Source: a virus. From it: a DNA stretch of 42,499 nt. Position 1 is the stretch's first letter; every line of letters starts with the position of its first letter. The notes beneath the pieces were generated by a model that saw only the letters and a list, made by a program, of their open reading frames with translations, was not told the DNA's origin and ran no database searches. The translations under genes were made by a program, and so were the position numbers. The stretch is from IMG/VR virus record IMGVR_UViG_3300017788_003308, positions 1 through 42,499 of that record. The stretch is one strand, 5' to 3'. Of the stretch, positions 3,201 through 26,132 are shown piece by piece.

Positions 3201-3202
3201 AC

Positions 3203-3931: not shown

Positions 3932-3934
3932 AAA

Positions 3935-9278: not shown

Positions 9279-10013
9279 ATGAGTCATATAAAAATCACAG
9301 CAATAATAACTGCCGTGGAAAAGAAAGATAGTCTAGATAATCAAATATCAAAAATTTTCGATTATACAGTAGGTAAAAATTTAAATCAGATTGACGAGTT
9401 TATAATCGCTACGGACTACCAAAGTTTAGAAGTAGAAAGAATTTGTCAAAAATATAATATAAAGTTTATAAAAACAAATGGGTTTTATGAAAATAATGCT
9501 CAATTTGATCGAGGCAAAGTGGTATCAGCTATACTTAAAAGTATAAAGTCTGGATGGATACTTCATATGGACGCAGACATATTATTACCCAAAGATTTTA
9601 AACAAAAAATTAATACAATAAATTTTAATAAAAATAAACTTTATGGAGCAAGAAGGATTCTGTTTTCTAATTTAACGAAAGTCAAAAGGTGGTTTGATAT
9701 GGATGAAGATCCGGAAGCCGTATCAGATTACATACCGTATGGATATTGTTGGGGATATTTTCAACTTTTTAATATGGAAAGCCCTCAAGTACAAACTTCA
9801 GACCCAGAGAATATATATCCATCTACAGGAACAGTTTATGAACAAGACGGATGGTTTAGAAATAAATGGGGATTGATGAAAGAGAATTATTATAAAAAAG
9901 GCAAACTTTTCCCTGATCAAGAAGATCTTATAGTAAAAGGAAATATAGAAGAACTACCTTTCTTCGTAGGTCATCTCGGCGGCAAAGACGGAGAAGGTTT
10001 TAGTTTAAGTTAA
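9279..10013 (+). CDS. glycosyltransferase, GT-A fold
   Basis: A 244-residue protein with a GT-A start (ITAIITAVEKKDSLDNQI) and a DxD-type metal site in GWILHMDADILLP. The second half has acidic and aromatic segments (YGYCWGYFQLF, NKWGLMKENYY) without a known subfamily signature. The end overlaps the convergent sulfotransferase-like gene by 9 nt, so the two stop codons are interlocked. Confidence 0.7.
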   Translation: MSHIKITAIITAVEKKDSLDNQISKIFDYTVGKNLNQIDEFIIATDYQSLEVERICQKYNIKFIKTNGFYENNAQFDRGKVVSAILKSIKSGWILHMDADILLPKDFKQKINTINFNKNKLYGARRILFSNLTKVKRWFDMDEDPEAVSDYIPYGYCWGYFQLFNMESPQVQTSDPENIYPSTGTVYEQDGWFRNKWGLMKENYYKKGKLFPDQEDLIVKGNIEELPFFVGHLGGKDGEGFSLS

Positions 10014-10676
10014 ATCAACACCCTTTTCTTTCGCTTGAAAATTTTCATGAAACAGTTTTACAGGGGGGCTCATCTCTTTATTAACGTCCGCCCTTTGCCA
10101 AAATTGCTTATCTAAACCCTTTATATTGACTTCTTCAGCTTTTTTTATAAAATCTTCGATGCGGTCAGTCTCAATATTAAACTCTATTAGTCTATTAGGT
10201 TTATCTTTAAAATAATCTTTTACATTTCTTGAGTGCGCCAAGTAATGGTTCATCCAAAGATTTATGACTTCATCGTATGTTAAATCATAATATTTCTGAT
10301 AAACTAGGAGATATGTTCTATCGAATGTAAGCCTAGAGTTAATCCACGATTCTAGAGGGCGAGTATTGAATATAAATAATGAGTTCTCATTTTCCTTGTC
10401 AAGTCTTTCAAATAGAGTATACCCCTGAAGAACTAATTGTCGTTTTGGTAAAACAACCTCCATATCTCCATAATAACTATAGTTCTCTATTCCGAAAAGT
10501 AAGCTTTTATTATTTTTTAGATTAAAATCAAAAGTTTCTGCAATCGGAATCATTTTCCTATAATTTTTATTATAAGCGATATTATGAGTAGCTCTATATC
10601 CGGACATTAAGAAGAACGCACGAAGAGCTTGAGTAGCGGTTCTATTAAATCCAATCTGAAATATCTTTCGATTCAT
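10005..10676 (-). CDS. sulfotransferase-like P-loop protein
   Basis: A 223-residue minus-strand protein. The N-terminus MNRKIFQIGFNRTATQALRAF fits the 5'-phosphosulfate-binding loop of PAPS sulfotransferases (usually xxxKxGTT; here FNRTAT). SLFIFNTRPLESWINSR matches the 3'-phosphate-binding segment. It likely transfers sulfate to a sugar or other acceptor, in keeping with the glycan context. The loop lacks the canonical Lys, with Arg in its place, so activity is not certain. It sits 2 nt after a small ORF on the same strand. Confidence 0.7.
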   Translation of the reverse strand: MNRKIFQIGFNRTATQALRAFFLMSGYRATHNIAYNKNYRKMIPIAETFDFNLKNNKSLLFGIENYSYYGDMEVVLPKRQLVLQGYTLFERLDKENENSLFIFNTRPLESWINSRLTFDRTYLLVYQKYYDLTYDEVINLWMNHYLAHSRNVKDYFKDKPNRLIEFNIETDRIEDFIKKAEEVNIKGLDKQFWQRADVNKEMSPPVKLFHENFQAKEKGVDLT

Positions 10677-10948: not shown

Positions 10949-11791
10949 ATGTTTTCGATTTATTCTTCTGCTTTCAATATAGAAAAGAACTCATTTGACT
11001 TTAAAACGGCTTTTGAGAATTATCTATCTTTTGCGGACGAGGTTGTAATATCTACAATAAACGATAACGAAGACTCCACAATTTCAATACTAAAAGATTA
11101 TTCAAACAAATATAAAAATTTTAAATTCTGCGTATCAAATCTAAAAAGAAAAGACCCACTATTTTGGGGAAAATTAAGAAATGAAGCTCTTGAAATATGC
11201 AAAGAAGAATTCTGTATAAGCCTAGACCTAGATGAGTATATACCAAATTGGCAAAAATATAATTGGATTAATTTTGCGAGGAATCTATCCTTTTCAGACT
11301 ACGATGCTTATTTAGTCCCGCTTTTAAATCTATGGGCAGATAAGTCTACTATAAGATGGGATACCTCAACAAATTATTTATTTAAATGGGTATTACATAA
11401 AAATTTAAAATTTCCAAAAAAATTAAAAAGAGGAGCCGTAAATTTTGCGAAAAAAAATGATGGAACAGTAGATATTACCAAAAGTGATACGAATGAATTA
11501 ATTTACGAAGACGGAGAACTAGTAAGATCTAAAAATATTATAACAGATTTTTCTTTAAATCCTGAAAACTATATCCAAGAGTGCACAAGCAAGATATTTA
11601 TATACCATACAGGATATCTAAATTTCGAAAATAGATTAACAAGAAATAAAAATTTTTGGAATGAACAATTTAAAATTCAAGCGGGGCACGCTCAAGAAGA
11701 AGCTGCAAATAAGTTCGCACCCTTAAACATTAAAGATTTAGAAAACAAAAGTTTAATTAAACATGGGCTTAAACTCTGGAACGAAAAATGA
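10949..11791 (+). CDS. GT2-like glycosyltransferase
   Basis: A 280-residue protein with the GT-A order: SIYSSAFNIEKN at the start, FADEVVISTINDNEDST, KLRNEALEICKEEFCISLDLDEY. The last contains the DxD-type metal site. The C-terminal half (YHTGYLNFENRLTRNKNFW) resembles the His-containing end of GT2 enzymes. It begins a plus-strand run of overlapping genes that reaches 13532, with its stop overlapping the next ATG. Confidence 0.75.
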   Translation: MFSIYSSAFNIEKNSFDFKTAFENYLSFADEVVISTINDNEDSTISILKDYSNKYKNFKFCVSNLKRKDPLFWGKLRNEALEICKEEFCISLDLDEYIPNWQKYNWINFARNLSFSDYDAYLVPLLNLWADKSTIRWDTSTNYLFKWVLHKNLKFPKKLKRGAVNFAKKNDGTVDITKSDTNELIYEDGELVRSKNIITDFSLNPENYIQECTSKIFIYHTGYLNFENRLTRNKNFWNEQFKIQAGHAQEEAANKFAPLNIKDLENKSLIKHGLKLWNEK

Positions 11792-12537
11792 AGCTGGGAA
11801 TTTTATATACAGGATTTAATAATTTTAAATACGCAAAAAAAAGCATCTTACCCTGGATCGTCTTAAAGAATCTTTATCCAAATAATTTTTTTATTACAGC
11901 AGTATCTATTCCATTCTTAGAGTATAAGAATGAAAATCTAGAAACAGACAATACAAATGAATTTTTAAAAACTCTTGAAAAAGCCGAGTTTATCGACAAA
12001 TGCTTTGATGGCCCTAAATTTTTAAAAGAGAATGACGCAAGAAATCTAGGGCTATTTGAATTACTTAAAAATAATTTAGATTATATTATGATTGTAGATT
12101 CTGACGAACTTTATTCAATAGAAAATATACAAAATATTATAAAGTATATACAAGATACCGATTCTGATCTCTATAAAATAAATTTTAAAAATTATATATT
12201 TGATGGTAAATCATATATTGATAAATTCTGTCCCCCTAGAATATATAAAACAAAAATTAATGATGGAATAAATAGTTTTTATTGGGATAATGAAATTGTA
12301 TATAACAATGGAATTACGGATAAACAATTAAAAACGATAGAGATACCAAAAGAGGTGGCTTATATAAAACACATGACATGGCTAAACGAAAATGGTAAAC
12401 AAAAAGTTGAGTATCATAAAAAACATTTTGGGGCATGTTCATACATATGGGATGAAAACAAACAAGAGCTCAAGCTAGATTTGGAATATTACGACCGAAT
12501 GGGCTATGAAAGACCAATCGTATATAAAGAAAAATAA
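11788..12537 (+). CDS. GT-A-type glycosyltransferase
   Basis: A 249-residue protein starting MKLGILYTGFNNFKYAKKSI. NDARNLGLFELL followed by YIMIVDSDELYS provides the nucleotide-sugar/metal DxD-type site. VAYIKHMTWLN and KVEYHKKHFG near the end are in the position of the distal His seen in GT-A enzymes. It overlaps the previous gene by 4 nt and the following one by 1 nt, as expected for coupled translation. Confidence 0.7.
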   Translation: MKLGILYTGFNNFKYAKKSILPWIVLKNLYPNNFFITAVSIPFLEYKNENLETDNTNEFLKTLEKAEFIDKCFDGPKFLKENDARNLGLFELLKNNLDYIMIVDSDELYSIENIQNIIKYIQDTDSDLYKINFKNYIFDGKSYIDKFCPPRIYKTKINDGINSFYWDNEIVYNNGITDKQLKTIEIPKEVAYIKHMTWLNENGKQKVEYHKKHFGACSYIWDENKQELKLDLEYYDRMGYERPIVYKEK

Positions 12538-13532
12538 TGAAAATTGCATATATTGATTTGCATAAAAATGAAATTCATGAAGATTACTCTATATGTCCTA
12601 AAAGATATGGTGGCGCCGCAACGCTAGCAAGGCACGCCAAACAAGCCTTAAATGAAAATGGAAACTTTTTTAAAATATTCGCTATGGAAGATTCATTTTC
12701 TTCTTATACAGAAAAAGATATAAAAAATATATATAAATTATCACAAGAAGAAATAAATAAATTTAATAATTTTTTTCCAGCCGTAGAAATAATTCCAGAA
12801 TTAAAAGATTTTGATATATTCATGTTTCATCATGATGGTTTTACTATTAATAAAGCGGGAAGCAAAGCAAAGAATATATACTGGCCATTAGTAAGCAATT
12901 CGTCCTGTCATCCGAACAATGATTTACTATTATTATATTCTTCAGATTTACAATGTTATTATTCTCCAGAATATACTAGAAAAGAAATATTTAAAATTGG
13001 GGTGGATGTTGATTTAAATTTTACAGAATACGAAAAAGAACCTTTCATTTTCCAATGCACTCAGCACACGGATTCATTTGGTTCTATCGAAGTAGCGAAA
13101 GAATGTTTAGCTCATAAATATAAATGTTTTTTCGCTGGACCAATATTTAATTCTTATAATTTATTAGACTTTATAGATAATAAAAGTACTTTTTATCTTG
13201 GTCAAATCTCTCAAACTAAAAAAGTAGAACTATATAAAAAGGCTACTTTTGCCACATTTTTTCATAAACATGAAACGCCATTTAATTTGTCTTTAATAGA
13301 AGGACTTGGATATGGAGTCGTGCCAATATGTTCAAGTAATATTTTCTTTAATAAAATTATAAAAAATGAATATAATGGATTTATATTTAAAAATAATTTT
13401 AAAGAAATAATTAATCACTCTAAGCTAAAAGAAATGCAAAGAAATTGTTTTAATACAGCTCAACTCTTTTCAAAAGAAGAGATGATCCATTCATTTATTC
13501 GTGCTGTGAATATTAATTTAAATATATATTAA
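12537..13532 (+). CDS. GT-B-type glycosyltransferase (GT4-like)
   Basis: A 331-residue protein. The N-terminus MKIAYIDLHKNEIHEDYSICPKRYGGAATLARH contains the glycine-rich loop of GT-B enzymes. The C-terminal half has QCTQHTDSFGSIEVAKE, FYLGQISQTKKVELYKKA, and ETPFNLSLIEGLGYGVVPICSS, which is the GT4 nucleotide-sugar site with the acidic residue in the usual place. No exact donor can be given. Its ATG overlaps the upstream TAA in TAATG. Confidence 0.72.
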   Translation: MKIAYIDLHKNEIHEDYSICPKRYGGAATLARHAKQALNENGNFFKIFAMEDSFSSYTEKDIKNIYKLSQEEINKFNNFFPAVEIIPELKDFDIFMFHHDGFTINKAGSKAKNIYWPLVSNSSCHPNNDLLLLYSSDLQCYYSPEYTRKEIFKIGVDVDLNFTEYEKEPFIFQCTQHTDSFGSIEVAKECLAHKYKCFFAGPIFNSYNLLDFIDNKSTFYLGQISQTKKVELYKKATFATFFHKHETPFNLSLIEGLGYGVVPICSSNIFFNKIIKNEYNGFIFKNNFKEIINHSKLKEMQRNCFNTAQLFSKEEMIHSFIRAVNINLNIY

Positions 13533-13537
13533 ATTTT

Positions 13538-13550
13538 TATATAATTATTT
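13538..13550 (+). promoter_or_regulatory. TATATAAT element before the 13551 methyltransferase
   Basis: TATATAAT at 13538-13545 is 5 nt before the ATG at 13551. The sequence 17 bp upstream (TTTAAA) is a poor -35 and there is no Shine-Dalgarno. Confidence 0.45.
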
Positions 13551-14195
13551 ATGAACAATAAAAATAGAATGTCTATAAATGGTAAATATCAAGAAATATA
13601 CGGTCATTTTGATTTTGAAAGCGTTTACGACATTATTGCGGACAATTTAAACTCAGGCGATACATTCGTTGAGATCGGGAGCGCTTGGGGAAAATCAGCA
13701 GTATACATGATGGAGAAACTATATGCCCAAAATAAACCTATAGATTTTTATTGCGTTGATATATTTACTCAAGAAGACGATATCGATAACATAGAATTTC
13801 CATTTGGGAATGGTAAAGAATATAGAATGAAATTTAAAAATCAAACGCTGTACTATGATTTTATATATAATATATTTCATTCTTACGCTAAAAATTTTAA
13901 ACCAATACCAATAAGAACCTATTCCGACCTAGCAGCAAATCTATTTGATGATAATAGTTGTAAGGCTATATTCTTAGACGCAGCTCACGATTATGAATCT
14001 GTTGCTAAAGACCTAGAAGCTTGGTGGCCTAAAATAAAAAATGGAGGAATTTTATCTGGGCACGATTTTTATGGTAAAGAAAACGGCTTCTCCGAAGAGA
14101 ATGGCGTAGCGAAAGCTTTAAATATATTTGTAAAAGAAAAAAATCTAAAAATTGATCGCATAATACATACGACATTTATTATAAATAAAAAATGA
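13551..14195 (+). CDS. class I SAM methyltransferase (Methyltransf_24-like)
   Basis: A 214-residue protein with the SAM loop FVEIGSAWGKSAVYM, the acidic strand FYCVDIFTQED, and CKAIFLDAAHDYESVAKDLEAWWPKIKNGGILSGHDFYG. The DAAHDYE and GGxxxGHDF motifs are typical of Methyltransf_24 enzymes, often found in carbohydrate clusters. The stop overlaps the next gene, another methyltransferase, by 4 nt. Confidence 0.85.
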   Translation: MNNKNRMSINGKYQEIYGHFDFESVYDIIADNLNSGDTFVEIGSAWGKSAVYMMEKLYAQNKPIDFYCVDIFTQEDDIDNIEFPFGNGKEYRMKFKNQTLYYDFIYNIFHSYAKNFKPIPIRTYSDLAANLFDDNSCKAIFLDAAHDYESVAKDLEAWWPKIKNGGILSGHDFYGKENGFSEENGVAKALNIFVKEKNLKIDRIIHTTFIINKK

Positions 14196-14983
14196 ACAAC
14201 GACCTAAGTCAAGAAGAGAAAAGGCATTGGAGCCTATCAGATGTAGCTCGCCGGAGGAATAGAGAGCAGGAGGTTTTAGAAGTAAGAGTGTACGATAAAT
14301 ATAACCTCATATTTAACAAAAATAAAGACCTTACTTTCATGAACCATGGATATTATCCAGTTCACCCAAAATGCGCAGATATGCTTCTTGATACACCCGC
14401 TTCAATGTATTGCTATTTTGCAGATAAATTTGGCGAAGTAAAAGGCAAGAGTTTACTTGATATTGGCTGCGGGCGAGGAGGAGGAACTAAAATCCTAAAA
14501 AAGCTGTACGATTTTTCCGAAGTTTTTGGGTGCGATTTAAATGCAGCAAATATTGATAGGTGCAAATTAGAACCTATGGGGTGTTTTTTTAAAATTGATG
14601 ACGCGCAATATCTAAGAAAATTTAAAAGCGGAGCTTTTGATTTTATTATTAATATTGAATCTTCGCATTGCTATGCTGATAAAGACAGATTTTTTAATTC
14701 TGTCAAAAGAGTTTTAAAGAGGGATGGGCTATTTATAACAGCAGATATTATAGCCCCGGCATACTGTTCGGATTATTTTAATTCTATTCGTCAACATTTT
14801 GAAATCAAAGAAGTAGAAGATATAACTTCCAACGTTGAAAAATCCTGCGAACATCTATTAAAAAAATTCTCAAACGCACAACTTGAAGAAGAGCTTGTAA
14901 TAAAAAACATCGCAGAGAGAAAACTTGAGCTTTATTCTAAAAGAGAAACCCTGTTCTTTGTTTCACTTTTAGCACAAAAATGA
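14192..14983 (+). CDS. class I SAM methyltransferase (Methyltransf_11/25-like)
   Basis: A 263-residue protein. The SAM site is SLLDIGCGRGGGTKIL, followed by VFGCDLNAANIDRC, then FDFIINIESSHCYADKDRFF and VKRVLKRDGLFITAD, the classic motif I-IV order of small-molecule methyltransferases. About 90 residues precede the Rossmann domain (MNHGYYP...), resembling sterol or natural-product methyltransferases. The acceptor is unknown. Confidence 0.85.
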   Translation: MNNDLSQEEKRHWSLSDVARRRNREQEVLEVRVYDKYNLIFNKNKDLTFMNHGYYPVHPKCADMLLDTPASMYCYFADKFGEVKGKSLLDIGCGRGGGTKILKKLYDFSEVFGCDLNAANIDRCKLEPMGCFFKIDDAQYLRKFKSGAFDFIINIESSHCYADKDRFFNSVKRVLKRDGLFITADIIAPAYCSDYFNSIRQHFEIKEVEDITSNVEKSCEHLLKKFSNAQLEEELVIKNIAERKLELYSKRETLFFVSLLAQK

Positions 14984-15810
14984 AAAAATTATTTGGAGTA
15001 AGAATGGGCCAAGTTAAAGACATTGTAATGTCATTACCCGCATTGGATATTTTAGAAGAAAATATAGGGAAAACTTACAATATATTCTCTGTAGCAAAAT
15101 CTTGTAAAGATATCGTCCCAATAATTAAAAATCATGAAAAAATACAAGAGATTAAAATTTCCGATTACGAAAATGATTTAGGAGAGAAAGATTTTAAAAT
15201 AATTCAAGAATGCGATTATTACATTAATCCAAAGCCATTACATCCTAAAGAAAAAGATTGGTACAACTATAGGTCTAGTTTGGAAGAAGCATGCTTTATG
15301 GCAACCCTAGACTATAAACTATTAAAAACAATGCCTAAAATAATTTATAAAAAAAAAGAAAAATTTAAAAAAACATCTTGTTTTATTATATCTAAATATT
15401 TTGATCAAGAATTAAAAAGTTGGTTCGGCCCACCAGATAGTTGGTGGGAGAAATTATTACAAAATAACGATAAATATATTGAAGATATTTATGGCGTTTT
15501 TGATTTAAAATTAAGTAAAAAATATATTAATCTAAAGCATAAACCGTTAGAAGAACAAGTGGAAATTATGTCGAAATGCCATTTAATTATTGGTGTGCCA
15601 TCAGATTTGACATGGATTTCTTCAGCAATTGGGCAAACAGATCAAATTAATATTTTGAGTAATGAAATAAAAGACCACAGAACAAACCATAATGCTTTTG
15701 CACCAATTGGAGAAAATACAAAAAGTATTTTTTTTAAAAATTACTATGACGATAGTGAAGCATTAGAAAAACTTGAATTAGTAATTAAAGGTGGATATCA
15801 TATATTATGA
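14980..15810 (+). CDS. GT9/heptosyltransferase-like glycosyltransferase
   Basis: A 276-residue protein whose start (KKLFGVRMGQVKDIVMSLPALDIL) matches the GT9 N-terminal motif RxGxxGDxxxxLPxxxxL, with K-D-I where most have G-D-x. The C-terminal half has MSKCHLIIGVPSDLTWISSAIGQ, the GT9 donor-site segment that usually reads GxDSGxxHxA; here Ser-Asp replaces Asp-Ser and the His is Trp. The fold seems clear, but donor chemistry may be altered. It overlaps both neighbours by 4 nt. Confidence 0.7.
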   Translation: MKKLFGVRMGQVKDIVMSLPALDILEENIGKTYNIFSVAKSCKDIVPIIKNHEKIQEIKISDYENDLGEKDFKIIQECDYYINPKPLHPKEKDWYNYRSSLEEACFMATLDYKLLKTMPKIIYKKKEKFKKTSCFIISKYFDQELKSWFGPPDSWWEKLLQNNDKYIEDIYGVFDLKLSKKYINLKHKPLEEQVEIMSKCHLIIGVPSDLTWISSAIGQTDQINILSNEIKDHRTNHNAFAPIGENTKSIFFKNYYDDSEALEKLELVIKGGYHIL

Positions 15811-16661
15811 AAGGTATTTTTTTAGGATACAGAGGGGCCGCAGGCCAAGTAGAAAGAATAGAGCTTGGCTGGGTGGAGAATGGCAATACATTATCCAAAG
15901 AAAATGAACCCCCAGATTTAATCTATTGTAACGATGGCGGGGTTTATGATATAGGATTAAATTTAAAACATCAATTTCCCAAAGCAAAACTCATATTTAA
16001 TGTACTTGATATACCGAAGAAATACTATCCAGAGATAAATTTAGAAGAGTTAAAATCTAAATTAACAAAAGCAAATATTATAACAACCATAAGTAAGTTC
16101 TCACAAGATCAAATTAAATATTATTTAGATTTAAATTCAATTATTATCTTTAATCCTGTAAAAAATGTTCATAATATGAACTTAAAAAGAGACATTAATT
16201 TTCTATATGTAGGAAGATTATATGAACCAAATAAAAGATTTTCTTTAGCTTTACAAAGCTTAAGTCTTTTAAATATTAATCGAAATGAATTTTTGATTGC
16301 TGGACCAGACGATCCAGGCGATAACTTGAATTACATCGGATGCGTAAATGACGAAACCTTAAATTTACTATATAATAAATCTAAATTTTTAATTTGTCCA
16401 ACAGAATATGGAGTTCTCGGGTTGCCCCCAATTGAGGCTATAATTTGTGGGTGCATACCAATACTTTGCAATGATAATCCCGCAGCAAAAGAATTTGGAC
16501 TGGAAGACTTTGCTTTTTCTCCTGATCCAAATATAATTGCTAAAGCTATAAAAGATGTAAAAATAGAAGAATTACATAATAAAATAGAAGCTTTAGGAGA
16601 AAAACTATTCGCACTCTTAAATAAAAATGATATAGCTAAAAATATTGAAAGGTTAATTTAA
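15807..16661 (+). CDS. GT4-family glycosyltransferase
   Basis: A 284-residue GT-B protein, shorter than usual. It has the N-terminal loop GYRGAAGQVERIE, the interdomain segment NFLYVGRLYEPNKRFSLAL and the donor-site motif CPTEYGVLGLPPIEAIICGCIPILC, with E-x7-E style acidic residues (TEYGVLGLPPIE). GT4 enzymes are retaining transferases using nucleotide-sugar donors. It probably acts with the GT9-like genes on either side. Confidence 0.82.
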   Translation: MKGIFLGYRGAAGQVERIELGWVENGNTLSKENEPPDLIYCNDGGVYDIGLNLKHQFPKAKLIFNVLDIPKKYYPEINLEELKSKLTKANIITTISKFSQDQIKYYLDLNSIIIFNPVKNVHNMNLKRDINFLYVGRLYEPNKRFSLALQSLSLLNINRNEFLIAGPDDPGDNLNYIGCVNDETLNLLYNKSKFLICPTEYGVLGLPPIEAIICGCIPILCNDNPAAKEFGLEDFAFSPDPNIIAKAIKDVKIEELHNKIEALGEKLFALLNKNDIAKNIERLI

Positions 16662-16662
16662 A

Positions 16663-17442
16663 ATGCTAGGGATCACAATGGCAGGACAAGCTAGAAGCTT
16701 ATTGGGGTTAGGAGATCAACTTCAATTCACCTCTTTTCCTGAGAATTTTTTTAAAAGCACAGGAGAAAAATTAATAGACGTTGATAATAATGAGTTATTT
16801 AATTATAATCCATACGTAATCCGTGGGGTAGAACCCAAATCTGTATTGGATCTTTGGCGGATGACAGATGTAGCTCAAGGAGGAATTTCCTATGACAAAA
16901 ACAAATGCATTCTTTCGCTTTCAGAAAAAAATATATATATCGCTAATAAAATTTTAAATATGAACCTACAAGTATTCTTAAGAACCCCAAGGTTATATAT
17001 ACATGAAGATTTAAAAATAAAAAGTAATCAAATAGTTGTGCATTTTTTTGGGAAAAGCCATAAACCAATACCTGAAAAAGTTATATATAAAATAAAAGAA
17101 AATTATAAAGATTTTAATATTATTCAAGTGGGAGGGGAAAACCAAAAAAAGTATGATATTTTTGAGAACGGCATGGGATTATCAATTTTTGACACAGCGA
17201 AAATAATTGCGGAGTCAATTCTATTTATAGGTATTAATAGCGGCATGTTAAACATAGCTTTGTGCTATCCAAAAGTCAACAAAAGAATGATCCTAAATTA
17301 CGATGATAAAGGATATGATTTAGAAAATATGATACCAATGGATGCACAAAATGGACACTATCATTGGTTAGATTTTGGGGTACCGATATTTAATACATCA
17401 GAACAAGACGTAGGCGTAACAAAAAGCTATATTTACATATAA
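16663..17442 (+). CDS. GT-B fold protein, GT9-like
   Basis: A 259-residue protein that starts 1 nt after the previous stop. The N-terminal half is atypical. The second half has QIVVHFFGKSHKPIPEKVI, FNIIQVGGENQKKYD and DTAKIIAESILFIGINSGMLNIA, the last corresponding to the GT9 donor-site segment (GxxSGxxxxA). The His that normally follows is absent. It looks like a diverged GT9 member. Confidence 0.6.
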   Translation: MLGITMAGQARSLLGLGDQLQFTSFPENFFKSTGEKLIDVDNNELFNYNPYVIRGVEPKSVLDLWRMTDVAQGGISYDKNKCILSLSEKNIYIANKILNMNLQVFLRTPRLYIHEDLKIKSNQIVVHFFGKSHKPIPEKVIYKIKENYKDFNIIQVGGENQKKYDIFENGMGLSIFDTAKIIAESILFIGINSGMLNIALCYPKVNKRMILNYDDKGYDLENMIPMDAQNGHYHWLDFGVPIFNTSEQDVGVTKSYIYI

Positions 17443-17468
17443 ATTTATTAGGTTTTCAATTTTATTAA

Positions 17469-17483
17469 TATATAATATTAAAT
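17469..17483 (+). promoter_or_regulatory. TATATAAT element before the DegT-fold gene
   Basis: TATATAAT at 17469-17476 lies 7 nt before the ATG at 17484, in a 41-bp gap after the previous gene. No -35 hexamer or Shine-Dalgarno is evident. The element starts a new plus-strand gene set. Confidence 0.5.
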
Positions 17484-18662
17484 ATGGATTGGTATTTAAA
17501 TGTAAATCAATTTACGTTTTTTGATAAGATTAAGATATGTAAATTTATCCTTAACCGCAAGAACAGATGGACGCAGGATTATCAAGTAAAATCTTTTGAA
17601 AAAGAAATGGCAGAGGCAATAGGTTCAAAATATGCAGTTTTTCTATCTAGTGGATCTACGGCTAATACTTTACTCGCTCAATATATTAAAGATTCTTCAA
17701 AAAATTTTAATAAAAGAAATCTTATAGTCTTGCCTTCAACAACGTGGCAAACTTCATGCTCACCCTGGATCAGAGAAGGATTTATCCCTAAATTTATAGA
17801 TATATCTTTAGACAACTTTTGCGTGGATAAAAATAAACTGTTAAAATATGTAAAAGAAAATCACCAGAAAATAGCCTGCATATTTCCTACATCTTTGATA
17901 GGTTTTGTGCAAGACATACCCTTTTATCAAAATCTCGAAAAGAAATATAACGTAAAAATTTGCTTTGATAATTGCGAGAATACTTTAGGCAATTTTAATC
18001 AAAAGAATATTTCTTCATATTTTACATCTACAACATCCACATATTTTGGTCATCAGATACAATCTGTAGAGGGCGGCTTCATATTTACTAATTCGGAAAA
18101 AGAATATGATTATTTTTTAATGAATAGAAATCACGGGATGGTTAGATCTTTAGGAATGTATGGAAGAGATGCAAAAGAATATAATAATAAAAATGTAGAT
18201 CCACTTTTTGATTTTTACTCTTTAGGGAATAACTTCAGAAACTCAGATATTCACGCCTTTATTGGAAGGTTAGATTTAAGAAGATTCCGAGAGTATAAAA
18301 AAACCAGAAGAAAATTATATGAACTATTTAGGAGTAAATTAAATTCAAAAAAATTTTACTTACCAAAAGAAAAAGATGCAAAAAAAGAGGCGGTCCCATT
18401 CTGTTTGCCAATAATAGTTAAAGACAAAAATTTAAATCTTATAAATAGATGTAAAGATTTTTGTAAAAAGTCAAATATAGAGTATCGGCCGATTATCTCT
18501 GGGTTCTTAGGCTACCAAACCTGTTATAAAGATTTTTTCGAAAATGAAAAAGAGTACAAAAATTCAATCTATATTCATAGATATGGATTCTACGTAGGCC
18601 TTCACCCAAAAGTAAAGGAAAAAGATATATTATATTTAACTAATATCTTAAATTCACTATGA
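17484..18662 (+). CDS. DegT/DnrJ-fold PLP enzyme with catalytic Lys replaced by His (ColD/E1-like 3-dehydratase candidate)
   Basis: A 392-residue fold-type I enzyme. FLSSGSTANTLL is the PLP phosphate-binding turn, and CFDNCENTLG contains the Asp that pairs with the pyridine nitrogen. The position that holds the Schiff-base Lys in sugar aminotransferases (pattern SFxPxKxxxxGEGG) reads STYFGHQIQSVEGG, so His190 stands in for Lys. His at this site is the hallmark of ColD (GDP-4-keto-6-deoxymannose 3-dehydratase) and of the E1 3-dehydrases, which remove the 3-hydroxyl instead of transaminating. Gmd, which makes the ColD substrate, is encoded at 20535. The stop overlaps the next ATG. Confidence 0.8.
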   Translation: MDWYLNVNQFTFFDKIKICKFILNRKNRWTQDYQVKSFEKEMAEAIGSKYAVFLSSGSTANTLLAQYIKDSSKNFNKRNLIVLPSTTWQTSCSPWIREGFIPKFIDISLDNFCVDKNKLLKYVKENHQKIACIFPTSLIGFVQDIPFYQNLEKKYNVKICFDNCENTLGNFNQKNISSYFTSTTSTYFGHQIQSVEGGFIFTNSEKEYDYFLMNRNHGMVRSLGMYGRDAKEYNNKNVDPLFDFYSLGNNFRNSDIHAFIGRLDLRRFREYKKTRRKLYELFRSKLNSKKFYLPKEKDAKKEAVPFCLPIIVKDKNLNLINRCKDFCKKSNIEYRPIISGFLGYQTCYKDFFENEKEYKNSIYIHRYGFYVGLHPKVKEKDILYLTNILNSL

Positions 18663-19309
18663 AAATTTGTATGGCGACATTATTTAATGAAGGCTATAAT
18701 AAAATAGCAGAAATTACAACTCCTAATATGGCCGAATACGCAAGAAAGCATGGTTATGATTTTTTGAGTTCAATGAAAAAATATGACGATAGACCAACTG
18801 CGTGGCAAAAAATACCATTGATTTATGACTTATTAAAAATGTACGATTGGGTAATATGGCTGGACACAGATTGTCTAATAGTAGATTTTTCTTATAAACT
18901 AGAAGATTTTATAGACGAAAATTATTCTTTAATATTGGGGTATTCTCACCAAATTGAAACTGGCGTTTTCTTTATGAAAGATGCTGAGGCAAGTAGACAG
19001 ATTTTAGAAATGACTTATAATAAAACCCAATTTATTAATGATGGCGCCTGGGAACAAACGGCAATGAAGCATCTACTAGAAGAATCCCCCGACTTAAATA
19101 AATTAACTAAAAAAATTTCTATGGACCCAATCAATCTAGACCCTAATTTTAAAAATCCTCCTTCTATACATCCTTTAGCAAGAGCGCCAGGGATGGTAAA
19201 ATATTGGGAATCTAAAAAACCATTTATAATTCATGCAGGATGGGGGCAAGAAGGAAACGATAGAAAATTCTTAATATTAAAAGAATATCTAAATAAAGTT
19301 AAAAAATAA
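18659..19309 (+). CDS. GT34-like galactosyl/mannosyltransferase
   Basis: A 216-residue protein. KICMATLFNEGYNKIAEITTPNMAEYARKHGYDFL, then WQKIPLIYDLL and YDWVIWLDTDCLIVD match the galactosyltransferase GMA12/MNN10 pattern, with DTD as the metal site. GVFFMKDAEASRQIL and NDGAWEQTAMKHLL follow in the expected order. The ending FIIHAGWGQ supplies a late His. It overlaps the upstream gene by 4 nt and the downstream gene by 1 nt. Confidence 0.8.
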   Translation: MKICMATLFNEGYNKIAEITTPNMAEYARKHGYDFLSSMKKYDDRPTAWQKIPLIYDLLKMYDWVIWLDTDCLIVDFSYKLEDFIDENYSLILGYSHQIETGVFFMKDAEASRQILEMTYNKTQFINDGAWEQTAMKHLLEESPDLNKLTKKISMDPINLDPNFKNPPSIHPLARAPGMVKYWESKKPFIIHAGWGQEGNDRKFLILKEYLNKVKK

Positions 19310-20127
19310 TGAGAGTTTTAGGTTTTAATCAAGGGCAAATAGGGGATTTGGTTATGAACCTAATTCCCTGCAAAGCCTTAAAAGAAAAAAATCCAAATAT
19401 CAATATAACATTTGGCATCAATAAAAAATATGAATCAATTAAACCAATATTTTATTATAATAATTTGATAGATGATTTTAAAATTTGGGAAAACTATGAG
19501 AATTGGCCAAGCGAAAATGATCAAAATTATATTAATGAAAGCCAATTCGATAAGATTTTTAACCCTATGCCAAAACATAAATATGATAATTGGTATGTAA
19601 AGTATCATCACACAGAAGCAGTATGCATGATGCACGATATAATACCGCCCACAGATCTTCAAATACAATTAAATCCATGGTTCGAAAAACAATCTAATTA
19701 TAAAAATTATATAGCAATAAGTCCATTCGCAAGCTCTGCGGTCCCGAACAGAAATATACCCATGGATTTATTATCAGAAATTATAGATTTTATTCATTCA
19801 TTAGGGTATAAAACAATTCAATTGGGGCTTAAAACTGATCCAAAAACAAAGGCTTCTATATCCCCGAGAGGAGAATCTATTTTTGAAGATGTGAAAATCG
19901 CTTATTCTTGTAAAATGTTAATTACTGTAGATACAGGGATGAATTGGATCATGTCTGGTTATAAACATAAGATCTTAGGGCTTCTTTCTGCTCGTTCATA
20001 TCCTATGTACGCACCAATTTTAAATAGAATGCCAGTAAATCCAAATGCAGTATATCTAGAAAATTATGATATGCATGATATAAAAATGAATATAATAAAA
20101 AACAATATTATTAAACTAGTTTCATAA
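19309..20127 (+). CDS. GT9/heptosyltransferase-like glycosyltransferase
   Basis: A 272-residue protein with the GT9 start RVLGFNQGQIGDLVMNLIPCKAL (GxxGD and the following Pro), the interdomain strand YIAISPFASSAVPNRNIP, GYKTIQLGL and the donor-site segment SCKMLITVDTGMNWIMSGY. DTG replaces the usual DSG and Trp stands where His is common. It resembles the 14980 gene more than ordinary LPS heptosyltransferases. Confidence 0.78.
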   Translation: MRVLGFNQGQIGDLVMNLIPCKALKEKNPNINITFGINKKYESIKPIFYYNNLIDDFKIWENYENWPSENDQNYINESQFDKIFNPMPKHKYDNWYVKYHHTEAVCMMHDIIPPTDLQIQLNPWFEKQSNYKNYIAISPFASSAVPNRNIPMDLLSEIIDFIHSLGYKTIQLGLKTDPKTKASISPRGESIFEDVKIAYSCKMLITVDTGMNWIMSGYKHKILGLLSARSYPMYAPILNRMPVNPNAVYLENYDMHDIKMNIIKNNIIKLVS

Positions 20128-20135
20128 TTATAAAA

Positions 20136-20516
20136 ATGAACACTATTGAAATATCCGATGGGGAACTTTTAGATAAATACTCTATACTCTGTATAAAATT
20201 TAAAAATATTAAAGATATTAAAAAAAAGAAAAATATAAGAAAAGAACTCAACTATATAAATAAAAAAATTAATAAATTTAAAAAAGATAGAAAGTACGCA
20301 AAACTTTTAAAAACCCTAATAGACACTAACCAAAAACTTTGGAAAATAGAAGATGACATTAGAGATAAGGAAAGACTAAAGCAATTCGACAACGATTTTA
20401 TAACCCTCGCAAGAAAAGTATATTTCACAAATGATTTTAGATTTAAAATAAAAAACCAAATTAATAACCTAAGCAAATCTTCATTTAAAGAAGAAAAAAG
20501 TTATAAAAAGTACTAA
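20136..20516 (+). CDS. DUF6165-like helical protein
   Basis: A 126-residue Lys-rich, helical protein. MNTIEISDGELLDKYSILCIK at the start, NQKLWKIEDDIRDKERLKQFD in the middle and LARKVYFTNDFRFKIKNQIN near the end match a pattern I recall for DUF6165, a small domain found with glycosyltransferases and nucleotide-sugar genes in bacteria. Its function is unknown. It comes 8 nt after the GT9-like gene. Confidence 0.65.
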   Translation: MNTIEISDGELLDKYSILCIKFKNIKDIKKKKNIRKELNYINKKINKFKKDRKYAKLLKTLIDTNQKLWKIEDDIRDKERLKQFDNDFITLARKVYFTNDFRFKIKNQINNLSKSSFKEEKSYKKY

Positions 20517-20534
20517 TATCTCATAATATATAAT

Positions 20535-21602
20535 ATGAAGAACGTTATAATCACGGGAGTTACAGGCCAAGATGGATCTTATATGGTCGATTTTTTATTA
20601 AAAGAAACGGACTGTATGATTTATGGAGTTAGAAGAAGAAGCTCTAATCCAAATTTAAAAAATATAGAACATAATATTAATAATCCTAGATTAAAGATTA
20701 TTATCGCTGATCTATGCGATAGCAATTCTATAGACGAAATAGTAAAAGATATTAAACCAGACTATTTTATTAATTTTGCCGCCCAATCTTTTGTAGGGAG
20801 CAGTTGGCAAATACCACTGCAAACATTTGATGCAACTGCCCTTGGAGTTTTAAGATGTCTAGAAGCTGTAAGGAAATACGCCCCTAATTGTAGGTTCTAT
20901 TCCGCTGGCTCTAGTGAAGAAATGGGAGATGTATTATACAGCCCACAAGATTTAAAACATCCTATACGCCCAAGAAGTCCTTATGGAGCCGCCAAAGCTG
21001 CGGCAAGACACATTACAAAAGTCTATAGAGATTCTTACAATTTATTTGCAATACACTCCATACTTTATAATCATGAAAGCGAACGCAGGGGCGAAGAATT
21101 TGTAACAAGAAAAATTACTAAAGGAGTAGCAAGAATCTTTAAGGCAATTAGAGATAATAAAACTTTTAAGCCAATTGAATTAGGTAATCTAGATTCAAAA
21201 AGAGACTGGAGCCACGCAGAAGATTTTATTGAAGGCATCTGGTTGATGTTGAACCAAGATAAGCCTAAAGAATATATACTTTCCTCCGGCGAAGCTCATA
21301 CTATTAAAGAGTTCGTGGAAAAAGCTTTTAAATCAGCAGGAATATTAGGTCATTGGTCATATTCTTCTAACGAAGAAATTCCAGAAAGTCTAGAATATAA
21401 AACTGCAATTAATTCCACGCTAAGATATATGCCATTAACTTTAGTTAAAATAAATAAACAATTTTATAGGCCTGCAGAAATAGATCTTTTGCTAGGAGAC
21501 TCCTCGGAGGCAAGAAAAAATTTAAATTGGGTACCAAAAAATTCTTTTGACAATTTGGTTAAAAGAATGGTAACATCAGATATTAAAGATGAGGCAACAT
21601 AA
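20535..21602 (+). CDS. gmd: GDP-mannose 4,6-dehydratase
   Basis: A 355-residue extended SDR, the normal length for Gmd. ITGVTGQDGSYMVDFL is the NADP-binding motif, YGVRRRSS the cofactor-specificity loop, INFAAQSFVGSSW a Gmd-typical segment, SAGSSEEMG the Ser-Glu catalytic site, SPYGAAKAAA the YxxxK pair and YNHESERRGEEFVTRKIT a family signature. It converts GDP-mannose to GDP-4-keto-6-deoxymannose, precursor of GDP-fucose, rhamnose, perosamine and colitose. With the ColD-like enzyme at 17484 it suggests a dideoxy-sugar route. A CATAAT (20522-20527) lies 7 nt before the ATG. Confidence 0.92.
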   Translation: MKNVIITGVTGQDGSYMVDFLLKETDCMIYGVRRRSSNPNLKNIEHNINNPRLKIIIADLCDSNSIDEIVKDIKPDYFINFAAQSFVGSSWQIPLQTFDATALGVLRCLEAVRKYAPNCRFYSAGSSEEMGDVLYSPQDLKHPIRPRSPYGAAKAAARHITKVYRDSYNLFAIHSILYNHESERRGEEFVTRKITKGVARIFKAIRDNKTFKPIELGNLDSKRDWSHAEDFIEGIWLMLNQDKPKEYILSSGEAHTIKEFVEKAFKSAGILGHWSYSSNEEIPESLEYKTAINSTLRYMPLTLVKINKQFYRPAEIDLLLGDSSEARKNLNWVPKNSFDNLVKRMVTSDIKDEAT

Positions 21603-21930
21603 ACTTTGTCAACTAATCGTAAAGAAATATGTAAATGGCAATATAAATTGGCCAAGAGAAATTAAAATTGCTCAAAGACTAATTAAAAAGTTTAATAGTT
21701 TTAACTTTTGGAATGGCTTAAAAGAATTAAAAAATCCTCCACCTTCTCTAGCGTGGTTTCTTAAACCAGAGGGCAAAGCTTTTCTTCTAATGGAATATGA
21801 AAACTTTAAGTTGTGTTTTAATAAAAACAAGATTTATTTAGGTGCATCTAAAATAGGAGAAGATAAAAAAATAAATTTTAAACCAAAAACATTATTATCT
21901 TTTATAAAGAGGGGGTTTGGGCAAAAATAA
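21589..21930 (+). CDS. small hypothetical protein
   Basis: A 113-residue basic protein whose start lies 14 nt inside the end of gmd. NINWPREIKIAQRLIKKFNSFNFWNGL and PPSLAWFLKPEGKAFLL suggest a small mixed alpha/beta domain. No family is recognised. It ends the continuous gene block, before an AT-only gap. Confidence 0.5.
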   Translation: MRQHKLCQLIVKKYVNGNINWPREIKIAQRLIKKFNSFNFWNGLKELKNPPPSLAWFLKPEGKAFLLMEYENFKLCFNKNKIYLGASKIGEDKKINFKPKTLLSFIKRGFGQK

Positions 21931-21951
21931 TTCGAATTTTATAATTTAAAC

Positions 21952-21982
21952 TATATAATATATAATATACAATATATAATCT
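21952..21982 (+). promoter_or_regulatory. three TATATAAT copies before the 21983 oxygenase gene
   Basis: TATATAAT occurs three times, at 21952-21959, 21959-21966 and 21973-21980, the last only 2 nt before the ATG. No -35 box is seen. The repeated octamer makes this the densest instance of the element in the window. Confidence 0.45.
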
Positions 21983-22699
21983 ATGAAAAATCTTAAAGAT
22001 TTACCAGACTCTGTGGAGCAAGCTTTAAATGAATCGCATCTCTCTCCGAGATTTGTTTGTGGCCCAATGAAAATTAAATTAACAAAAGATCTAATGATTC
22101 ATTTAACAGAAGTAACCGAGAGAGAGATAGCCGATGTAAAAAATCGAAAAAATCTTAACAGTGATGTTATAGTTCGTGCCTTTGATAGTATTGGATCGTT
22201 CTCTGTGTATCATAGAGTAAATCAAGAGTTTAAAGATTTTCTTAAAGCATGTGCAGTAAAATATGCAGAGCTACTAGATATAAAAGAATTACTTGAAGGT
22301 AGAGGAAGCACGGCTCCATTTGGGAGCCAAAACAAAGAGAGAGGTGAAATAAAAATAACTGGCATATGGGGGATCTCAAATAGAGAATACGATTATAACC
22401 CCGTGCACTGGCATTACGGAAAACTATCAGGAGTCATTTATATAAAAGTGCCCGAACAGATTATCGATGGCACGAGAGAAAAAGAGTTCGGTATTGCAAA
22501 ACAACACGGGGTAGCTGACGGCAAACTAGAGATTATATATGGATCTTCTTGGCCTTTCGCTTTTCACAGCGTTGGAAACGCTAAAATATGTCCAATCGAA
22601 GGAAATATGTATTTGTTCCCAGCGTGGCTGCTACACACTGTTTATCCCTTTAAAGGAGAAGGCGAAAGAAGGATAGTCAGTTTTAATTTAGATTGGTAA
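21983..22699 (+). CDS. 2OG-Fe(II) oxygenase (2OG-FeII_Oxy_5-like)
   Basis: A 238-residue protein. NPVHWHYGKLSGVIYIKVP gives H142/H144 with the following strand, FPAWLLHTVYPF gives distal H218, and RRIVSFNLDW gives the 2OG-binding Arg. This layout, with HxH and a late LFPxWLxHxVxP, is that of the oxygenase family widespread in cyanophages. The substrate is unknown. It stands alone between the glycan block and the recombination genes. Confidence 0.82.
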   Translation: MKNLKDLPDSVEQALNESHLSPRFVCGPMKIKLTKDLMIHLTEVTEREIADVKNRKNLNSDVIVRAFDSIGSFSVYHRVNQEFKDFLKACAVKYAELLDIKELLEGRGSTAPFGSQNKERGEIKITGIWGISNREYDYNPVHWHYGKLSGVIYIKVPEQIIDGTREKEFGIAKQHGVADGKLEIIYGSSWPFAFHSVGNAKICPIEGNMYLFPAWLLHTVYPFKGEGERRIVSFNLDW

Positions 22700-22716
22700 A
22701 TTTTAAAAAAAAAAAC

Positions 22717-22745
22717 TTGCCAAAAGTATAAAAACTTCTTATACT
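22717..22745 (+). promoter_or_regulatory. sigma70-type promoter of the RecA/UvsX-like gene
   Basis: TTGCCA at 22717-22722, a 17-bp spacer and TATACT at 22740-22745. The ATG at 22756 is 10 nt after the -10, so the leader would be at most a few nt. There is no Shine-Dalgarno. Confidence 0.65.
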
Positions 22746-22746
22746 T
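22724..22746. promoter_or_regulatory. inverted repeat overlapping the -10 box (operator candidate)
   Basis: Perfect 8-bp arms AAGTATAA (22724-22731) and TTATACTT (22739-22746) flank a 7-bp centre. The right arm covers the -10 hexamer, so a protein bound here would block transcription of the recombinase gene. The same 8-7-8 geometry, with different sequence, occurs at 39164. Confidence 0.45.
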
Positions 22747-22755
22747 AATAAAATT

Positions 22756-23904
22756 ATGGGAAGAAAACCAAAAGAAGAAAATCCTGCGATGGAAACCTCT
22801 GGTCCATCAGCTAAATCAAGGTTAATTTCTTTTTTAAAAGAAAATAAAGAAGATCATTATAACTTTGAAGAAGAAATTTATTATAAAGTTTCAACTGGTA
22901 GTTTAAATTTAGATATTGCTACAGGAGGTGGACTAACCCCTGGATTGCATAGATTCTTGGGAATGAATGAAGGAGGAAAAACCTCAGAAGCATTAGAAGT
23001 GGTTAAAAATTTTCTTAAGTCTATTAAAGACTCAAGAGCCTTGCTTTTTAAAGCAGAGGGGAGATTGAGTAAAGAAATACAAGAAAGATCTGGAGTAAAA
23101 TTCGTTACAAATCCAGAGAATTGGGAGGACGGAACATGTTTTGTATTTGAATCAAATATTTTTGAAACTGTTTCTGAACTTATGAAAGATCTTGTTCAAA
23201 ATAATGATGAAAATAAAAGATATATTTTTGTTTTAGATTCTGTCGATGGTTTAATGACTAAAAGCGATAGCTTAAAAAGTTTATCTGAGGCAACAAAAGT
23301 GGCCGGTGGAGCAGTGATATCTTCTATGTTAATGAAAAAAATTTCTCTTGCCCTTTCTAAAAGAGGGCATATGGCCATATTTATTAGCCAAGTCAGATCA
23401 GACATTAAGTTAGATCCTTATGCTGCAAATAAAGAAATAAGACAAACTTCGGCCACAGGTGGAAATGCGCTCCTACATTTTGCAAATTGGATTCTTGAAT
23501 TTGAGCCTCGTTATAATAAAGACCTTATTCTTGAAAAACCAAATGAAAAATATGATTCTATTAAAAATAAAATTATTGGACATAATGTAAAAATTATTAT
23601 AAAAAAATCTACAAATGAATCCACAAATTCAAAAGTCCAATATCCAATTAAATATGGTAAAAAAGAAGGCTCTTCAATTTGGAAAGAATATGAAATTATA
23701 GACCAAATTCTTTCTTGGGAATTTGCTACAGCTAAAGGCGCTTGGGTCGCTTTCTCTGACGAAATTATAGAAGAACTTAAAAAATCTAATTTAGAAGTCA
23801 AGAAGCAACATCAAGGCATTGATAATTTAAGACTATATTTAGAAGAAAACCCGAAAATTGTTGATTATTTTTATAATAAATTTATAAAAACTCTTGCTTC
23901 ATGA
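22756..23904 (+). CDS. RecA/UvsX-like recombinase
   Basis: A 382-residue RecA-fold ATPase, about the length of T4 UvsX. VSTGSLNLDIATGGGLTPGL precedes the Walker A motif GMNEGGKT at 69-76; the Walker B strand is RYIFVLDSVDGL, and IFISQVRSDI followed by TSATGGNALLHFANWIL matches the DNA-binding loop region of RecA/UvsX. It should catalyse strand exchange in recombination-dependent replication and repair. Its stop overlaps the nuclease gene that follows by 4 nt. Confidence 0.88.
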   Translation: MGRKPKEENPAMETSGPSAKSRLISFLKENKEDHYNFEEEIYYKVSTGSLNLDIATGGGLTPGLHRFLGMNEGGKTSEALEVVKNFLKSIKDSRALLFKAEGRLSKEIQERSGVKFVTNPENWEDGTCFVFESNIFETVSELMKDLVQNNDENKRYIFVLDSVDGLMTKSDSLKSLSEATKVAGGAVISSMLMKKISLALSKRGHMAIFISQVRSDIKLDPYAANKEIRQTSATGGNALLHFANWILEFEPRYNKDLILEKPNEKYDSIKNKIIGHNVKIIIKKSTNESTNSKVQYPIKYGKKEGSSIWKEYEIIDQILSWEFATAKGAWVAFSDEIIEELKKSNLEVKKQHQGIDNLRLYLEENPKIVDYFYNKFIKTLAS

Positions 23905-24320
23905 GACTATTAAATATTAACGGAAAACTCGTTAATAAGAATGTCAAAAGATACTCAATAGATTGGCAAGGAAAGAGCCGTAGCAAGCTACAATTTAAAT
24001 TTAAACAATTTTTTTATCCTTATTGGAAAAATCATATTGTTTATGAAGAGTTTCCTGTGTATGGAACGATGCTTAAAGTTGATATATTAAATGCGACAAA
24101 AAAGATAGCAATTGAGGTACAGGGCAATCAACATGAATCCTTTAATGAATTTTTTCATGATCATTCTAGACTAAAATATCTTCAAAGCATAAAAAGAGAT
24201 GTCAAAAAAGAAAAATGGTTAGACATGAATGGATTTAAATTTTTAGAATTGTATGAAAATGATTTAAAAAATTTATCGCCCCAATATATAGAAGAAAAAA
24301 CTGGAATTCTAATTATTTAA
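23901..24320 (+). CDS. PD-(D/E)XK nuclease-like protein
   Basis: A 139-residue protein. LKVDILNATKKIAIEVQGNQH has the D-x(n)-ExQ arrangement of a Vsr/PD-(D/E)XK active site, followed by HDHSRLKYLQSI and GFKFLELYEND. The ending (LxLxxND) is common in Vsr-like and homing-type endonucleases. It overlaps the recombinase gene by 4 nt, which suggests a role in recombination or repair. Confidence 0.68.
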   Translation: MRLLNINGKLVNKNVKRYSIDWQGKSRSKLQFKFKQFFYPYWKNHIVYEEFPVYGTMLKVDILNATKKIAIEVQGNQHESFNEFFHDHSRLKYLQSIKRDVKKEKWLDMNGFKFLELYENDLKNLSPQYIEEKTGILII

Positions 24321-24335
24321 GTGTAAAATTATTTG

Positions 24336-24602
24336 GTGACAAATAAAAAGAAACCATTTAAAATACCAGATTCTTTACTAAAGCAAATTGACGAATGTAG
24401 TTTTGGAGGATATGTTTTATTTAATTTTTCAAACAAAGGAGAACCTCAAGTTTTCACCAAGTTTGATAATCAGATAAATGCCATGGCTATTTTATATTAT
24501 ATTAATACATGGAGCCAAAGCGTAGACCAATTAAATCTTGAAGCGACAACAAATTTAATATCCAAAATAGAAGACGAAGAAGACGAAGAAGACAAAGATT
24601 GA
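24336..24602 (+). CDS. small hypothetical acidic-tailed protein
   Basis: The product is about 88 residues. The start is either GTG at 24336 or the adjacent TTG at 24333; GTG is preferred. FKIPDSLLKQIDECSFGGYVLFNF is followed by a helix and a strongly acidic tail (IEDEEDEEDKD), which recalls phage ssDNA-mimicking or protein-binding tails. No family is recognised. It precedes the helicase gene. Confidence 0.55.
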   Translation: MTNKKKPFKIPDSLLKQIDECSFGGYVLFNFSNKGEPQVFTKFDNQINAMAILYYINTWSQSVDQLNLEATTNLISKIEDEEDEEDKD

Positions 24603-24612
24603 TTTATCTTTC

Positions 24613-24641
24613 TTGACTTTTAATTTTTAATTTAGTATCAT
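24613..24641 (+). promoter_or_regulatory. sigma70-type promoter of dnaB
   Basis: TTGACT at 24613-24618, a 17-bp spacer and TATCAT at 24636-24641. Only 6 nt separate the -10 from the ATG at 24648, so transcription should begin at or beside the start codon. No Shine-Dalgarno is present. Confidence 0.7.
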
Positions 24642-24647
24642 ATATAT

Positions 24648-26132
24648 ATGATATACTCCTTGCAAGTGGAAAGACACGCTTTAAGTGGTTTATTAAAATA
24701 TCAAGAGCTTTTCCCAGATATAGATATATTTTTGACGGAAAAAGATTTTTATAATGATGTTCATTCTACGATATATAGTGTTTTTAAAAATATTAAATAT
24801 AAAGGAGAAAACGCAGATAAAATCTTGCTAGCAGAGAAGATTAAAAATTTAGGAATATCATTCAAAGACGAGATAAACATATTTGATTACATTGATAACT
24901 TAAGTTTTTCACAGATCACAGAACAAGCTACTGTTGAAGCATGCAAAGAACTAATTAAATTAAGGATCCGAAGAGAGATAATTCAAACAACGGATAAATT
25001 AAAAGATTATATTAATAAAAACCCAGATGATTCTGTAGACCAAATTATAGGTCAAATAGATCAAATCTACAACAAGAAAATCTCATCATATTCAGAAAAT
25101 GATTCTCCAATTAACATATTTGAAGAGGTGGAAGATTTAATTGAAGAAATTGGAAACGCCCCAAAAGAAGATACAGGATTAATTACTCCTTATCAAGAAT
25201 TTAACAGAATGTATGGAGGTTTAAAAAACGGAAATATTTATGCAATAGCAAGCCGTCCAGGTCAGGGAAAATCCACCTGGCTAAATGATATTTGTTTTAA
25301 AACCTCTATCAACCCAAAAAATAAAACTAAAACATTAATTCTAGATACAGAAATGCAAACAATTGATATTCAATTGAGAATGGTTGCATCGTTGACAGAT
25401 GTCCCCGTTTGGTATTTGGAAACCGGAAATTGGAGAAAAAATGAAGAGATGACAAAAAAAGTAAGAGCAGCTTGGGCGAAAGTAAAAACTTATGAATATT
25501 TTCATTACCATGTTGGAAATAAAAATATAGATCAAGTGTGCTCTATGATTAGAAGATGGTATTTATCTAAAGTCGGAAGAGGAAACCAGGCTATGATCGC
25601 TTATGATTATATTAAATTAACTGGTGAAAAAGTTGGCCAAAATTGGGCAGAGCATCAGGCGATTGGAGAAAAAATTGATAAATTAAAAAGAATCTCAGAA
25701 GAGATTAAATGTCCAATTATTACCGCCATGCAATTAAACAGAACCGGAGAGAGTTTTAACAGAAACTCTAATAATATAGTGGATGATAGTTCAGTCATAT
25801 CTCTTTCTGATAGGCTTCAATGGTTTGCTTCGTTCGTGGCAATCTTCAGAAGGAAAACTCTTGATGAAATTACCTTAGACGGCCAAGCTTTTGGCACGCA
25901 TAAATTGATACCAACTAAAACTAGATTTCAAGGCAAAGACGCAGCAGGACATCAAGATATAGTTAGAAGACTTGACTCATCAGGCAAAGAAACATGGGCT
26001 CAAAATTATTTAAATTATCAAATAACAAATTTTAATATTGAAGAGCGAGGTTCTTTGAGAGACGTAGCCGAAAGACAAAGAGAGCAATATGAACTAAATG
26101 ATTCTAATAGAAATGATGGAGAGTTATTATGA
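24648..26132 (+). CDS. dnaB: DnaB-family replicative helicase
   Basis: A 494-residue protein of normal length. The N-terminal helical domain (VERHALSGLLKYQELF) is followed by a linker, then GGLKNGNIYAIASRPGQGKST with Walker A at about 202-210, ILDTEMQTIDIQLRMVAS, the Walker B strand MIAYDYIKL and ITAMQLNR. This is the ring helicase that unwinds the fork. It overlaps thyX by 4 nt and the primase follows, so helicase and primase are probably co-expressed. Confidence 0.93.
   Translation: MIYSLQVERHALSGLLKYQELFPDIDIFLTEKDFYNDVHSTIYSVFKNIKYKGENADKILLAEKIKNLGISFKDEINIFDYIDNLSFSQITEQATVEACKELIKLRIRREIIQTTDKLKDYINKNPDDSVDQIIGQIDQIYNKKISSYSENDSPINIFEEVEDLIEEIGNAPKEDTGLITPYQEFNRMYGGLKNGNIYAIASRPGQGKSTWLNDICFKTSINPKNKTKTLILDTEMQTIDIQLRMVASLTDVPVWYLETGNWRKNEEMTKKVRAAWAKVKTYEYFHYHVGNKNIDQVCSMIRRWYLSKVGRGNQAMIAYDYIKLTGEKVGQNWAEHQAIGEKIDKLKRISEEIKCPIITAMQLNRTGESFNRNSNNIVDDSSVISLSDRLQWFASFVAIFRRKTLDEITLDGQAFGTHKLIPTKTRFQGKDAAGHQDIVRRLDSSGKETWAQNYLNYQITNFNIEERGSLRDVAERQREQYELNDSNRNDGELL

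Follow-up and report, generated by a model that had tools for sequence, protein, structure and literature searches.

Gene organization of the locus

The window, namely the whole 42.5-kb stretch of DNA that was analysed, is a virus fragment with phage genes encoding a UvsX-like recombinase, a DNA polymerase and minor tail proteins. Positions 10949-21602 hold a run of sugar-related genes, all in the same direction. The features of interest are as follows.

4675-5262: short-chain dehydrogenase/reductase (SDR), 195 aa
10949..17442, + strand: upstream part of the sugar cassette, with GT2-like and GT4-like glycosyltransferases, a methyltransferase-like and a GT9-like protein (Pfam matches at 11788, 12537 and 15807)
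17484..18662, + strand: ColD-type (His-for-Lys) DegT-fold enzyme of 392 aa, predicted GDP-4-keto-6-deoxymannose 3-dehydratase
18051..18053, + strand: codon of His190, at the position of the Schiff-base Lys of aminotransferases
18659..19309, + strand: glycosyltransferase-like protein (GMA12/MNN10, GT34; Pfam PF05637, E=3e-16), its gene overlapping the colD-like gene by 4 nt; order matched in the related locus L011
19309..20127, + strand: conserved cargo protein with no Pfam match and with homologues in nine related loci
20136..20516, + strand: small DUF6165-like protein (Pfam PF19662, E=3e-4, under its cut-off); order matched in L011
20535..21602, + strand: Gmd, GDP-mannose 4,6-dehydratase, 355 aa
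22756..26132, + strand: phage replication block of UvsX/RecA-like (PHROG 97), VSR-like nuclease and DnaB-like helicase genes, syntenic in about 14 loci

The three genes from 18659 to 20516 thus separate the colD-like gene from gmd. The methyltransferase, GT9, nuclease and helicase labels are readings of the sequence only. In relatives, the replication block borders the sugar cassette. This phage group has a cargo hotspot, in which glycan genes of varying content immediately precede the gene for a conserved 112-aa protein and the UvsX-like/nuclease/DnaB-like block; it is seen in the window at 10949-26132 and in about 14 related loci, including L002, L003, L011, L012, L021, L023, L030, L035, L038, L040, L041 and L043. 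In addition, the opposite strand encodes a putative HSP20-like small heat-shock protein (6193-6549) and, adjoining the sugar cassette, a putative sulfotransferase-like protein (10005-10676), and several 2OG-Fe(II) oxygenase lookalikes are located at 2274-4675 and 21983-22699, among which Pfam backs that at 21983 only.

The enzyme at 17484 has a predicted ColD-like fold with His190 at the Schiff-base position

The protein encoded at 17484-18662 matches the Pfam family DegT_DnrJ_EryC1 over residues 25-387 (E=5e-42), and a phmmer search against the PDB revealed that its closest solved relative is ColD (PDB 2gms), the E. coli GDP-4-keto-6-deoxy-D-mannose 3-dehydratase also called WbdK, with an E-value of 4e-35. 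An AlphaFold model, with 34 viral rows in the input, has a pLDDT of 93.8; together with Pfam, it indicates that the DegT/AAT fold spans the full length of the protein. Structural similarity search of this model against the PDB using Foldseek gave ColD for all of the first 12 matches (TM 0.86-0.90), followed by E1 and then by Lys aminotransferases. In BFVD, the only matches were remote PLP enzymes from phages and giant viruses. The fold alignment with ColD has an identity of 26%.

An earlier note on this DNA had read the protein as a DegT-fold enzyme with His190 in place of the PLP-binding Lys. The open reading frame is indeed intact, and alignment with the ColD structures places His190 exactly on ColD His188, in a column at which the mutant chains 3b8x (H188N), 2r0t and 3gr9 (both H188K/S187N) all differ. 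The residue is invariant in all 34 viral proteins. Moreover, of 107 aligned proteins, 100 have His in this column and the seven with Lys are ordinary aminotransferases, so His190 is no chance substitution. Compared to the Lys aminotransferases GDP-perosamine synthase and PseC, which share the fold and the cofactor family and keep the Schiff-base Lys, the window enzyme has His.

Both E1/RfbH (CDP-4-keto-6-deoxyglucose 3-dehydrase, PDB 3bcx) and ColD are His-type 3-dehydrases. A four-cysteine [2Fe-2S] motif is found in E1 and SpnQ but not in ColD, a difference for which the mechanistic meaning has also been given (PMC8987622). Across the 107 aligned proteins, all four cysteines are retained in the E1 group, whereas the window enzyme has only one, which is also common to ColD; because three of the four are absent, it belongs to the ColD type. 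Residues Trp88, Glu165, His217, Arg252 and Gly368, among others, recur in bacterial ColD as well as in the window and cyanophage clades but are different in E1, where Phe takes the position of Trp88. In agreement, a maximum-likelihood tree of 88 rows strongly supports the separation of the Lys aminotransferases, the E1-type enzymes, bacterial ColD and the viral ColD-like proteins from one another; the viral enzymes and bacterial ColD group together at 100/96, apart from E1 and the Lys aminotransferases (100/99). The window enzyme is sister to bacterial ColD rather than within it; its separate, mainly viral clade comprises 21 viral proteins and two encoded on Hydromonas chromosomes, 23 in all.

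Gmd is present, whereas no Fcl/ColC reductase is found in the fragment

As the earlier note had stated, a full-length Gmd is encoded downstream of the colD-like gene, at a distance of 1.87 kb. It aligns over its full length with solved GDP-mannose 4,6-dehydratases (E=3e-82), matches PF16363 (E=2e-104) and conserves the GMD catalytic and GDP-mannose motifs (SSE, YxxxK and NHE..RRG). The NCBIfam gmd model covers residues 3-351 with 344.6 bits, under its curated equivalog cut-off of 415.

The note had further proposed that a reductase, perhaps the SDR at 4675, completes a colitose-like sugar. We found no Fcl/ColC homologue within the 42.5-kb fragment, which may be incomplete. The SDR is unlikely to be a ColC reductase: at 195 aa it is short, a PDB search at E<=0.01 yielded nothing, its Pfam matches are weak, and it occurs in only one of 16 related viral records. 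In relatives that do bear a reductase, the enzyme is an Fcl/ColC-like protein of 304-310 aa encoded next to colD, as in L003 and L035. The L003 protein matches GDP-fucose synthases (E=2e-63), and the Fcl-like set retains the Cys, His and YxxxK residues, which we take to be catalytic from established knowledge of Fcl. The SDR upstream of ColD in L041 and L023 was also rejected as the reductase, being nearest to UDP-glucose 4-epimerases and not to Fcl. With Fcl/ColC absent from the fragment and the SDR at 4675 a poor candidate, the final sugar of the window phage, which might be colitose, is therefore not callable as such; the pathway of this phage may end with GDP-4-keto-3,6-dideoxymannose if neither the host nor a gene beyond the fragment supplies the remaining step.

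The Gmd-ColD pair is widespread in phages

The cyanophages S-CAM7 (KU686213; host Synechococcus) and ACG-2014f (NC_047714) carry adjacent gmd, fcl/colC-like and His-type colD genes under other names, in the gmd-fcl-colD order of bacterial ColD loci. As in the window, a phage-encoded Gmd and a His-type ColD-like enzyme stand among glycosyltransferases, but the identity is 32-34%, an Fcl/ColC-like gene is adjacent, and the cassette lies just upstream of the tail fibre genes. A DNA-level search of the window cassette against isolated phages gave no match; thus its relatives there are found at the protein level only.

We collected IMG/VR and isolate sequences, collapsed them at 95% identity and scored neighbours within 6 kb, which yielded 59 non-redundant viral loci. 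The cyanophage-type clade has gmd at 33 of 33 loci and fcl at 31. Among the 26 window-type loci, gmd is a neighbour at 14 and fcl at seven, with both at two and neither at seven. Extended to whole records of the window clade, the counts are 20/26 for gmd, 5/26 for a strong or true fcl and 2/26 for both; the six records with no gmd match include three long ones (117-120 kb for two, 140 kb for the third). The full trio of fcl, colD and gmd is adjacent in L003-L005, just ahead of the UvsX block. In L028, L031 and L036, the Fcl-like gene overlaps the ColD-like one and no gmd is found in the record (120-140 kb for L028 and L031), the complement of the gmd without fcl seen in the window.

The pair is therefore real and widespread in phages, usually with the third pathway enzyme. 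The earlier note was unaware of such a pair in a phage; it stands, differently labelled, in public records of cyanophages and also occurs in dozens of viral contigs, so that of the window is not a first. The genes gmd, fcl, rmd and rfbH have already been reported from phages (PMC9602691, PMC11295528, PMC12911398); neither the enzyme type, the pathway nor the carriage of nucleotide-sugar genes by phages is new. Our search of freely accessible article texts found no paper on colitose or ColD in phages.

Two further observations concern the family at large. Phages also carry E1-type four-cysteine 3-dehydrases (L008, L009, L010, L035:27-1352, L037:3198-4514 and L085:9708-11030), sometimes beside a ColD-type one at the same locus. 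In addition, two Hydromonas chromosomal contigs (L091 and L092) have a ColD-like gene nested in the viral clade and flanked by housekeeping genes. It is followed by a glycosyltransferase-like gene that is also found in phage L002, and a gmd homologue of 43% identity is located on another contig. The nesting and the shared glycosyltransferase-like gene suggest exchange between phage and host.

Proposed substrate and reaction

Altogether, we consider it probable (roughly 0.8) that the enzyme at 17484 is a ColD-type, PMP-dependent and Fe-S-independent 3-dehydratase that uses GDP-4-keto-6-deoxymannose and belongs to a phage cassette for glycan modification, as predicted from its sequence and model. 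Weighing against this are the low identity to ColD (26%), the change from Ser187 to Gly189, the lack of Fcl/ColC in the fragment, the window-clade records that have no gmd match and the Gmd score under the equivalog cut-off. Thus the core of the earlier reading, a 3-dehydratase rather than an aminotransferase that is coupled to Gmd, is retained on the basis of His190, the tree, the fold, the missing Fe-S motif and the co-occurrence of gmd, whereas the novelty of the pair and the role of the SDR at 4675 are not.

It is rather unlikely that the enzyme performs the same 3-dehydration on a CDP-, dTDP- or UDP-linked 4-keto-6-deoxy sugar while Gmd feeds a separate pathway, for example to fucose or rhamnose. 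In line with such a substrate, the best named NCBIfam model is RfbH, at 113.6 bits against a cut-off of 423, Gly189 stands at the position of ColD Ser187, and gmd is missing from the six records mentioned above. Nevertheless, the lack of the E1/SpnQ motif and the placement with ColD by both tree and fold argue for the GDP-linked substrate, as does the recurrence of gmd as a neighbour, since E1-type loci have a different dehydratase adjoining; moreover, we recognised no second enzyme in the window that would consume the Gmd product.

Less probable still is an aminotransferase with His for Lys, or an inactive or repurposed DegT protein. The DegT fold is common to transaminases, and SpnQ, itself a His-type 3-dehydratase, transaminates when its reductase is left out, but ColD does not under those conditions (PMC8987622). 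The window enzyme groups with 3-dehydratases away from the Lys enzymes, and its His is invariant in the viral proteins; compared to relatives, the gene and gmd are under purifying selection (dN 0.15-0.26, dS 1.3-1.7), with dN/dS near 0.1. That the contig is host DNA and the pathway bacterial, for which one might cite the 50% relative within the same clade on Hydromonas chromosomes, is already contradicted by phage synteny, since about 14 viral contigs share the arrangement with the replication block. The window's own genes for a UvsX-like protein, a phage DNA polymerase and minor tail proteins speak against it too, as does the related trio in isolated cyanophages.

For a ColD-type 3-dehydratase paired with Gmd, we infer the substrate, chemistry, final sugar and target as follows. 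The phage Gmd would convert host GDP-mannose to GDP-4-keto-6-deoxymannose, with which the ColD-like enzyme would form a Schiff base. His190 would then act as base and acid to expel the C3 hydroxyl, hydrolysis would release GDP-4-keto-3,6-dideoxymannose, an activated intermediate on the way to a rare colitose-type 3,6-dideoxy sugar, and glutamate would regenerate PMP. In relatives, the adjacent Fcl/ColC-like epimerase-reductase would yield GDP-colitose or a colitose-like sugar; in the window phage, the last reduction would have to come from a host Fcl-type enzyme, from a gene that lies beyond the fragment or from a reductase not recognised as such. The glycosyltransferases encoded around the pair would then transfer the sugar onto a host surface glycan or the virion.

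Implications

A modest point of interest is the mainly viral ColD clade from which the reductase is frequently missing. Tentatively, this clade, often accompanied by Gmd and without ColC/Fcl even in records of 70-150 kb, might feed a non-colitose 3,6-dideoxy nucleotide sugar, with the last step left to the host or to a phage reductase that escapes recognition. Deposited phage genes of the ColD-like family labelled ‘aminotransferase’ or ‘CDP-4-keto-6-deoxy-D-glucose-3-dehydrase’ probably code for ColD-type 3-dehydratases instead. 3,6-Dideoxy sugars strongly determine the serotype of surface polysaccharides in bacteria, and phages with the first committed enzymes for such sugars could remodel the surface glycans of their hosts, with consequences for superinfection exclusion and host range, or glycosylate their own virions.
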